Shown piece by piece: positions 1,500 through 3,190 of a DNA stretch of 5,666 nt. Made by a program: the position numbers and the translations under genes. The notes under the pieces were generated by a model. The model was not told the origin of the DNA. It saw only the letters and a program-made list of their open reading frames with translations, and did not search any database. This DNA comes from Candidatus Zixiibacteriota bacterium. Lineage in GTDB: Bacteria; SM23-81. Each line of letters begins with the position of its first letter. The first letter of the stretch is position 1. Where the stretch lies: the NCBI GenBank assembly GCA_030628225.1, contig DAOVRJ010000168.1, positions 1-5,666 on the forward strand. The letters run 5' to 3'.

Positions 1500-1633
1500 C
1501 CAGGATTTAGGGGTTAGGGGAAAACCAGAAAATCATGTTCTACACGGTTAGTTACATATCGGGAGGTGGAGGTGGGGTCCCTAACCCCTGATCCCTAACC
1601 CCTGTCTTTCCGGGATCCCTAACTCCTAACCCC
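1500..1633. repeat. Intergenic hairpin repeat, copy A
   Basis: The left arm opens with CCAGGATT and contains AGGGGTTAGGG (1509-1519), which pairs perfectly over 11 bp with CCCTAACCCCT (1579-1589). Pairing can extend outward because GGATT (1503-1507) faces ATCC (1591-1594). The enclosed core of about 59 nt has GGGGAAAA (1517-1524), CATGTT (1534-1539) and GGAGGTGGAGGTGGGG (1562-1577). The right arm continues with more CCCTAACCCC words and one CTGTCTTTCCGGGA unit beginning at 1602. I do not recognise a named repeat family. Confidence 0.65.
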
Positions 1634-1639
1634 AACCCA

Positions 1640-1703
1640 ACCAGGGTATAGGGTATAGGGGTTAGGGAAAAGAATAGAACCAAAAAACTCATGTTATCTC
1701 AAC
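1640..1703. repeat. Intergenic repeat, truncated copy B (left half only)
   Basis: A left arm (CCAGGGTATAGGG followed by TATAGGGGTTAGGG) runs into AGGGAAAA (1664-1671) and CATGTT (1690-1695), as in the other copies. It then stops at about 1700, where the left arm of the next copy begins with CCAGGATT. The GGTGG...GGGG stretch and the right arm are absent. This looks like a nested or partly deleted copy. Confidence 0.5.
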
Positions 1704-1936
1704 CAGGATTTAGGGTTTAGGTGTATAGGGGTTAGGGTTTAGGGGAAAACAAAAAAACCATGTTTTATCACAGTGAGTTGCATGTTGGGTGGCGGAAACG
1801 GGGTCACTAACCCCCAACCCCTGATCCCTAATCTCTGTCTTTCCGGGGTCCCTAACCCCTGATCCCTAATCCCTGTCTTTCCGGGGTCACTAATCCCTGT
1901 TCCCTAACCCCTAACACCCAACCCCTAACCCCTCTT
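1701..1936. repeat. Intergenic hairpin repeat, copy C with expanded right arm
   Basis: The left arm (1704-1745) carries AGGGGTTAGGG (1727-1737). It can pair with the identical complement CCCTAACCCCT at 1850-1860 and with other C-rich words in the right arm. The core holds GGGGAAAA (1742-1749), CATGTT (1759-1764) and GGGTGGCGGAAACGGGG (1787-1803), with the same 17-nt offset from GGGG to CATGTT as copy A. The right arm (about 1805-1936) is much longer than the left because a 38-bp unit is duplicated in tandem inside it. Confidence 0.6.
1835..1910. repeat. 38-bp tandem direct repeat, two units
   Basis: CTGTCTTTCCGGGG begins at 1835 and again at 1873, exactly 38 bp apart. In both units it is followed by TC(C/A)CTAA(C/T)CCCTG(A/T)TCCCTAA. 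A third, diverged and truncated unit (CTGTCTTTCCGGGA) begins at 1602 in copy A. The small period and high identity suggest recent duplication by slippage or unequal exchange. Confidence 0.7.
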
Positions 1937-2004
1937 TTTGAACGGACACCTATTTTTCTTTCCAGGATCCAGGATCGCATCTCCACAATCCCATGCCCAG
2001 GATC
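1937..2004. repeat. Right border of the nadB-side repeat
   Basis: CCTATTTTT (1949-1957) is followed by two overlapping CCAGGATC words (1962-1976) and a third at 1997-2004. The other locus ends the same way, with CCTATTTTT (3164-3172) followed directly by CCAGAATCC (3173-3181). This similarity is the basis for treating it as a border of the repeat element. Confidence 0.45.
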
Positions 2005-2054
2005 TTGTCACCTTCTTTGATTAAATAATGTAAATACTCATACAAAGCTCGAAC

Positions 2055-2852
2055 TTAAACGCTCAACAACAAACCTAACAAACCCACAGCCCAGCAGTAA
2101 AAGGCGAAATAGCAGAGCTTTCCTCTGCGAACCACCCTGAGCAGGACCTTGATGGCTGCGTAACCGGAGATGTAAGCAGCCATCGTCCCCAGAAATAGGG
2201 AGATGAAGGCTGAAGACGATGGAGGCAATCTCCAGAGATCGACGGCCTTCAGGGCCGTGGCCCCCAAAATGGCCGGCAGGGCCAGCAAAAAGGAGAATTT
2301 CACCGCCCTGTCCTTATTCACCCCCTGAAAGAGGGCAGCACCGATGGTTGCTCCTGACCGGGAAACACCCGGCAGGATGGCCAGGGCCTGGGCGCAGCCC
2401 ACCAGAATGGCCTCCTTGATGCCCACGGCCTTTTTCCCCGCTGGTACGTAACGGGTCAGCCAGAGGATCAGGCCGGTGAGCAGAAGCATAAAGGCGACGA
2501 GAATGGTACTGGAGAAAGCTTTCTCCACGCCCTCTTCCAATAGAAGACCCACCACGGCCGCGGGTATAGATCCCACCAGGATAAGGCCCGCCAATCTCAG
2601 ATAAGGATCACCACGGACGCCTCGGCCCACGACAAACCGCCCGCTGGAGAGGATCATGCCACCCACCTCCCGCCGAAAAGCGGTCACCGTGGCCAGCAGG
2701 GTCCCGAAATGAACAAAGACCACGAAGGCCAGATCTTCCCCCCCCAGACCCAGGAGGTGCTTTGCCAGGGCCAGATGGCCCGAGCTGCTGATGGGCAAAA
2801 ATTCGGTGAGCCCCTGCAAGAGTCCCAGGAGGAGAGATTCAATGGCGGACAC
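2055..2852 (-). CDS. uppP: Undecaprenyl-diphosphatase UppP/BacA
   Basis: UppP is an integral inner-membrane phosphatase that converts undecaprenyl diphosphate to undecaprenyl phosphate. This recycles the lipid carrier for peptidoglycan, O-antigen and other envelope glycans, and overexpression gives bacitracin resistance in known cases. The 265-residue product matches the usual family length. The first signature QGLTEFLPISSSGHL (residues 13-27) holds the (E/Q)xxxE pair Q13/E17 and H26; the second, PGVSRSGAT (161-169), holds the catalytic-type R165. Several hydrophobic membrane segments fill the rest (about 90-107, 117-134, 186-203, 215-238 and 248-264). The start is GTG at 2852 with AAGGAGGT at 2856-2863, 4 nt from GGAGG to the start. 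The gene stands apart from its neighbours, with 431 bp upstream and 671 bp downstream, both carrying the same repeat family. It is probably transcribed alone. Confidence 0.96.
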   Translation of the reverse strand: MSAIESLLLGLLQGLTEFLPISSSGHLALAKHLLGLGGEDLAFVVFVHFGTLLATVTAFRREVGGMILSSGRFVVGRGVRGDPYLRLAGLILVGSIPAAVVGLLLEEGVEKAFSSTILVAFMLLLTGLILWLTRYVPAGKKAVGIKEAILVGCAQALAILPGVSRSGATIGAALFQGVNKDRAVKFSFLLALPAILGATALKAVDLWRLPPSSSAFISLFLGTMAAYISGYAAIKVLLRVVRRGKLCYFAFYCWAVGLLGLLLSV

Positions 2853-2893
2853 GCCACCTCCTTAGAGGTTCAAAAAACTTACGGCCGTTTTAA

Positions 2894-2920
2894 ATTACAA
2901 TGCCGGTGGTAAAAAGGCAA
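2894..2920 (-). promoter_or_regulatory. Possible sigma70-type promoter for uppP
   Basis: On the minus strand TTGCCT (2915-2920) and TGTAAT (2894-2899) are 15 nt apart, inside an AT-rich stretch 40-70 nt upstream of the GTG start. The -10 box is good, but the spacing is shorter than the usual 17, so this is a tentative call. Confidence 0.3.
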
Positions 2921-3011
2921 GGAAAATAAAAAAGGACTTGATAACGTTCCTCCGGTGTTCCCACAGGCCAATACCGTCGGGGAGATGGCCAATTATCTGA
3001 ATTGATGTGTA

Positions 3012-3027
3012 GGGGGAAGTCTCCCCC
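3012..3027. other. Small GC hairpin at the left edge of repeat copy D
   Basis: GGGGGA-AGTC-TCCCCC forms a perfect 6-bp stem with a 4-nt loop. Neither strand has a T-tract after it, so it is unlikely to be an intrinsic terminator. It sits about 17 bp before the CCAGGATT that opens the repeat, and may be a structural element in the uppP upstream region. Confidence 0.35.
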
Positions 3028-3043
3028 TCCCAACCTTTCCACT

Positions 3044-3190
3044 CCAGGATTCAAGGGGTCAAGGGGCCGAGGGTTCAAGGGAAAAGCAATTCAAAACCTG
3101 TTGATGTTCCCAGTGGTGGTGGACGGGGATCGCTCGAATCCCTGAATCCTCGAACCCTTGAATCCTATTTTTCCAGAATCCTGGAATCCT
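3044..3190. repeat. Intergenic hairpin repeat, copy D (uppP side)
   Basis: The left arm begins with CCAGGATT; AGGATTCAAGGG (3046-3057) pairs perfectly over 12 bp with CCCTTGAATCCT (3155-3166). Further words (GGGTTCAAGGG at 3071-3081; TCGAATCC and TGAATCC in the right arm) allow more partial pairing. The core has GGGAAAA (3079-3085), GATGTT (3103-3108) and GTGGTGGTGGACGGGG, matching the nadB-side copies in order. The right border is CCTATTTTT then CCAGAATCC (3164-3181). The arm vocabulary differs from that of copies A to C. Confidence 0.6.

Follow-up and report, generated by a model that had tools for sequence, protein, structure and literature searches.

The gaps on either side of the uppP gene in Candidatus Zixiibacteriota bacterium hold hairpins with a similar order of parts, which raises the question of what these hairpins are and how they came to occupy both gaps. 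The window, meaning the whole stretch of DNA that was analysed, was one complete contig of 5,666 bases from a genome of 2.34 Mb in 306 contigs. Its minus strand carries all five genes: nadB, uppP, two outer-membrane beta-barrel genes and a pfkB-type kinase gene. Copies A, B and C of the repeat were located between nadB and uppP, and copy D between uppP and the first barrel gene, so that uppP is placed between two repeat-bearing gaps. Copy B and the tails that follow C and D were read from the sequence.

1500..1603, plus strand: copy A, TTAGGGG-type hairpin (left arm 1500-1520, purine-rich loop 1521-1577, right arm 1578-1603)
1609..1640, plus strand: extra right-arm unit of A (CCGGGATCCCTAACTCCTAACCCC), then the CCCAACCCAACC module (direct repeat families D1/D2)
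1641..1702, plus strand: copy B, truncated, consisting of the left arm and the start of the loop
1703..1831, plus strand: copy C, TTAGGGG-type hairpin (left arm 1703-1744, loop 1745-1800, right arm 1801-1831)
1832..1935, plus strand: tandem 38-45-nt right-arm extensions of C (D1/D2 families)
1949..1970, plus strand: CCTATTTTT and CCAGGATCC tail after C
2055..2852, minus strand: uppP, undecaprenyl-diphosphate phosphatase (Pfam BacA, 5e-75, and NCBIfam)
3043..3166, plus strand: copy D, AGGATTCA-type hairpin (left arm 3044-3081, loop 3082-3130 with GGTGGTGGACGGGG, right arm 3131-3166)
3167..3190, plus strand: ATTTTT tail and small CCAGAATCCTGG palindrome after D

Direct reading confirmed the presence of hairpins A, C and D and of the truncated copy B, all described in an earlier sequence-only reading of this DNA. 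Copies A and C have 17 nt between the G-run and CATGTT or ATGTT, and copies B and D have 25 nt, in agreement with that reading; the tail of CCTATTTTT and CCAG(G/A)ATCC that it assigned to the repeats in general was found after C (1949-1970) and D (3165-3180) and was absent from A. What had been missed is that the arms are tandem arrays of 7-8-nt units, and that the unit differs among copies while the two arms stay matched. In hairpins A, C and D the arms measured about 20-40 nt and the loops about 50-57 nt. Copy D corresponds to inverted repeat I1, with 37-nt arms that are 73% complementary, and copy A is also covered by inverted repeats I10 and I7. A covariance model built from 12 copies and run on the contigs of the compared genomes matched copy A at 1502-1603 with 55 bits (A being a member of the training set) and copy C at 1719-1829 with 58.5 bits, the latter having relatives on about 20 other contigs. 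The junction between B and C was seen again at G000:C21, the same truncated B-C composite occurs in L100, and full versions of copy B were found at L099:143 and L101:2480.

The arms of D-type copies are made of degenerate 8-nt AGGATTCA-like tandem units and those of the A-C type of 7-nt TTAGGGG-like units; smaller classes are built from CGGAACTC, AGAGATC and CGGGAATC. Whatever the class, the right arm carries the complement of the left-arm unit, and arm complementarity was 16-17 within a class vs 6-10 between classes. The loops share a plan of about 40-60 nt with an A-rich start (GGGAAAAC) and a G-rich end. The similarity between the two loci on which the sequence-only reading relied was real but modest: a profile of the 8-nt-class loop scored 6.4 bits in A and 5.4 bits in C against a 1% shuffle threshold of 4.3, and 24 of 35 loops of other classes exceeded the 1% shuffle level, although these loops are not independent of one another. 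Copies of the TTAGGGG class have a C-rich module upstream and tandem right-arm extensions, the number of which varies among copies, and the CCCAACCCAACC module was found upstream of many other 7-nt-class copies too. Further repeats accompany the hairpins. Many D-type copies have a second dispersed repeat, GGTTGCAGCCTAAAGGTCAGAGGGTGTTGTGTCTCTGCGGC..., next to the right arm (L079, L080, L081, L084, L085, L087), and a third repeated module, ending in GGCACGCCGGCTGCAGCGAGGGGGAAACTTCCCCCTCCCAACCC, stands before several TTAGGGG-class copies, upstream of the left arms in L090, L092, L099 and L106. Upstream of some left arms (e.g. L121:7080-7145), a C-rich tract between two left-arm pieces is complementary to the G-rich loop end; pairing of the two would make an H-type pseudoknot or a different fold possible.

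The proposal that the repeats are a dispersed element rather than local low complexity was borne out by the genome search, with matches to both D and C on many other contigs; a genome devoid of further copies, which would have refuted the proposal, was not what the search showed. BLASTN with copy D gave E values from 4e-61 to 1e-9 on other contigs of the same genome, including a copy at C248 with 96% identity, complete copies at C17 and elsewhere, and a graded series of further matches, while copy C gave values from 1e-58 to 1e-23. Flanks differed between copies that share a core. Several copies were located at contig ends, as repeats break assemblies. The covariance model detected 52 sites in this genome and 26 in a relative, the only genome of the same family compared, of which about 1.5 Mb was analysed. 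Of the 78 sites, 77 lay wholly outside genes predicted with a simple gene caller. At many sites the arms of about 20-40 nt form terminal inverted repeats of a short, non-coding, dispersed element. A search of the genome contigs with UppP for a related locus found no relative.

Outside the family the distribution was less regular. Model matches in two genomes of the same phylum and another family were weak, lay mostly in apparent coding sequence and were set aside as apparent chance matches. The model matched 12 of 290 sampled genomes in a patchy manner, and the 8-nt AGGATTC hairpin, with other loops, was detected in at least 115 stretches across GTDB species, mostly Desulfobacterota and Nitrospirota. 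For this octamer hairpin no description was found in the literature, in an incomplete search that is weak evidence of absence. The TTAGGGG class is confined to this genome, where its pattern had 164 matches vs 4 in the relative, against 103 for a reversed-pattern control in this genome. Octamer hairpins of Desulfobacterota often lie beside another palindrome, either TTCTCCCAATTAGTTGGGAGAA-like or CCATCGGCTAAAGCCGATGG-like (L144, L189, L198, L204 and the flanks in L150, L197 and L201).

One candidate for a dispersed intergenic hairpin is a non-autonomous transposon that is moved in trans, either of the REP/RAYT (Y1 transposase) kind or a MITE. REP stems are short, carry a GTAG-type tetranucleotide and have an associated RAYT. 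Our hairpins resemble REP/REPIN elements with RAYT transposases (PMC3116915, PMC8266576) in being dispersed between genes, and a search for transposase and reverse transcriptase genes that covered the Y1_Tnp and RVT_1 families found three RAYT-like genes in each of the two genomes and one IS200-type TnpA here. However, the hairpins showed neither the GTAG-type foot nor the RAYT association: GTAG or GGAG was present at the 5' foot in just 1 of 48 copies, and no such hairpin was found within the 450-nt flanks of RAYT-like genes in either genome. Mobilisation by RAYT was set aside on these grounds. Like MITEs, the elements are short, dispersed and non-coding with terminal inverted repeats; unlike them, they have tandem-array arms whose unit changes between copies. 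Flanking direct repeats, as a sign of target-site duplication, were not in excess (P 0.34), the outer boundaries of the copies being fuzzy. The IS200-type gene is not the source of the hairpins either. Bounded by CCCCCGCTCGTGAGCGGGGG hairpins, it splits the right arm of a heptad hairpin of the AAAATGC class (G000:C221, about 8000-8730; L078), and, since it was inserted into that hairpin, it is the only one of the Y1 genes with heptad hairpin halves beside it. We therefore regard mobilisation of this kind as improbable, and consider that the element reads as MITE/REP-like in behaviour but lacks the REP hallmarks.

The hairpins could also act as transcribed structured RNA or as transcription terminators on the neighbouring genes. 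Predicted folds are stable (copy D, -66.2 kcal/mol vs -50.4 ± 4.3 for shuffles, z -3.65), the A-C region also folds better than shuffled sequence (z -2.7), and T-runs follow many right arms while A-runs precede some left arms. Against this, no preference for gene orientation was detected between co-directional genes (15 sense vs 19 antisense), and the convergent, divergent and co-directional gaps that hold copies (3/7/34) matched the background of all gaps (14/31/155), with no preference for gene ends and no enrichment between convergent genes. Neither a terminator nor a cis-acting leader fits well with such even orientation and background-like gap types. Terminator-like sites in the region were not in excess (4 vs 3.3 expected), and an Rfam search returned no match up to E 1. 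Base-pair covariation, for which RNAalifold and the model alignment both looked supportive, was considered as a proof that the structure is one of RNA, and was dropped because shuffled 3' letters nearly matched and because, in a register-free test within classes, an element's own arms paired no better than arms from different elements. A register-fixed test on the model alignment did give better self-pairing (P 0.002 or less); since that alignment had been fitted to the structure, we gave more weight to the unbiased test, which leaves no compensatory signal within a class. An RNA or terminator function thus appears distinctly unlikely. Where the sequence-only reading had offered a mobile element or an RNA or DNA structure, the absence of orientation bias and of within-class compensatory pairing, together with the lineage-specific gains described below, leans to a dispersed repeat at the DNA level; the mobile part, as far as known transposases are concerned, was not supported.

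The period of 7-8 nt was not restricted to the classes of the window. An unbiased scan of gaps for inverted repeats with both arms periodic, with lags of 4-13 tested, found periodic-armed hairpins in 34 of 150 gaps of this genome (on contigs chosen for model matches), 33 of them at lag 7 or 8 (period 7: 26; period 8: 7). In the relative, all 13 periodic hairpins from 472 gaps on contigs with no strong model matches were at lag 7 or 8, as were 60 of 65 in 232 gaps, biased by retrieval, from Desulfobacterota, Nitrospirota and other contigs. In E. coli, 200 kb with 73 gaps yielded no periodic hairpin, and none was found in dinucleotide shuffles at lags 6-9 (for E. coli, of the first 50 kb only). 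At least 12 unit sequences had a 7- or 8-nt period, among them AAAATGC, GATCCTGG, ATCGTGA, ATCGTTG and GAGATTC, and hairpins of the same build with different units are found in many other bacteria. Desulfobacterota and other MAGs also have heptad-armed hairpins, with units that include ATCAAAG, GCAAATT and GTTCACG (L138, L219, L234 and further stretches).

The telomere-like look of the TTAGGGG arms and the arrays of 7-8 nt bring to mind a repeat-adding reverse transcriptase (telomerase-like, retron or DRT). The assembled parts of both genomes contain no PF00078 gene and the units vary widely, and we consider such an origin very improbable.

Comparison of orthologous gaps in the two genomes revealed turnover. 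Conserved gene pairs enclosed 80 gaps, of which 3 held the model element in both genomes, 6 here only and none in the relative only. For periodic hairpins of any unit, compared in 44 orthologous gaps of at least 60 bp, the corresponding numbers were 5, 6 and 0, with 33 gaps empty in both. Joint occupation exceeded expectation (P 0.0004, or P 0.02 when both gaps were at least 200 bp). The AGGATTC class was kept in two shared gaps, L079/L119 (with conserved flanks) and L086/L121; the units differed in three others, with TTAGGG vs AGGATTC in L114, AGAGATC vs ATCGTTG in L103 and other units in L100. Copies of the TTAGGG class at L093, L100 and L084 had no counterpart in the orthologous gaps of the relative. 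The gap table therefore indicates that copies are gained in one lineage and also that the same gaps are occupied repeatedly.

Joint occupation of 5 of 44 gaps, three of them with different units, is not expected from random insertion and may mean site-linked formation or a function. The hairpins might be products of their own gaps, quasi-palindromes growing in place by replication template switching between the arms and slippage of 7-8-nt units, so that many unit types re-arise in the same gaps with no mobile unit. Template switching is a published route to the creation and maintenance of hairpins (PMC8794818, PMC7202029). This explanation would fit the period common to so many unit sequences, and its main support is the occupation of both genomes' gaps, three of the five with different units, which is not well explained by copying. 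However, loops common to many unrelated sites within a class need copying, the arms lack, in the unbiased test, the self-pairing advantage that frequent inter-arm copying should give, and the 73 E. coli gaps held no such hairpins. We regard growth in place as possible, though doubtful.

We favour, with moderate confidence, a dispersed non-coding intergenic repeat at the DNA level that spreads by copying and has its arms reshaped by slippage of units. Transposition-like or recombinational copying would carry copies of a source hairpin of each class into new gaps, and these copies would then decay neutrally. The data can be explained with no regulatory role. Copying of class-specific sources followed by decay explains the shared loops, the gains and the absence of compensatory changes. 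Slippage of 7-8-nt units at the hairpin would make arms longer or shorter or give them another unit, and would explain arm lengths that differ in unit steps.

The closest precedent is the inverted GGGAATC heptamer repeats of Xanthomonas. Rehm et al. 2015 described these as degenerate, G-rich, dispersed arrays, about 90% intergenic and with no strand preference, with 70-75 facing array pairs per genome able to form a stem-loop (PMC4692102). Our repeats are likewise degenerate 7-nt tandem units in intergenic DNA whose facing arrays could form a stem. They differ in having 8-nt units too, in that five or more classes with a common architecture each have matched arms, and in the change of unit at orthologous gaps, whereas for Xanthomonas a single unit and no conserved loop or several classes have been reported. 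A GGGAATC-type unit is not the main one here, where AGGATTCA and TTAGGGG prevail and the CGGGAATC class is a minority. Cyanobacterial heptanucleotide repeats, known from Calothrix and as GGGGA(C/T)T from Nostoc, are also heptameric, tandem and intergenic, some being rich in CCCC/GGGG; unlike our hairpins, those of Nostoc have few reported inverted pairs (PMC4692102). Marine Beggiatoaceae have TAACTGA direct heptanucleotide arrays, likewise in intergenic gaps; unlike our hairpins with drifting units, these have one unit, and one indirect repeat has been reported (PMC4679880). No explanation of the 7-nt period was found in the descriptions of the Xanthomonas and cyanobacterial heptamers.

Heptamer arrays, including facing ones, were thus known before for single units in Xanthomonas and cyanobacteria. 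Here, many units, matched arms and a common architecture come together in one lineage, along with orthologous gaps that show turnover. Tentatively, a process common to several bacterial phyla and so far unrecognised may build intergenic hairpins of 7-8-nt units, and rebuild them, whatever the unit. It would copy the unit into each of the two arms, and one gap could then carry hairpins of different units in related genera. Such repeats affect assembly, through contig ends, and intergenic annotation in uncultivated lineages, and the present set makes it testable what sets the 7-8-nt period and what couples the two arms.
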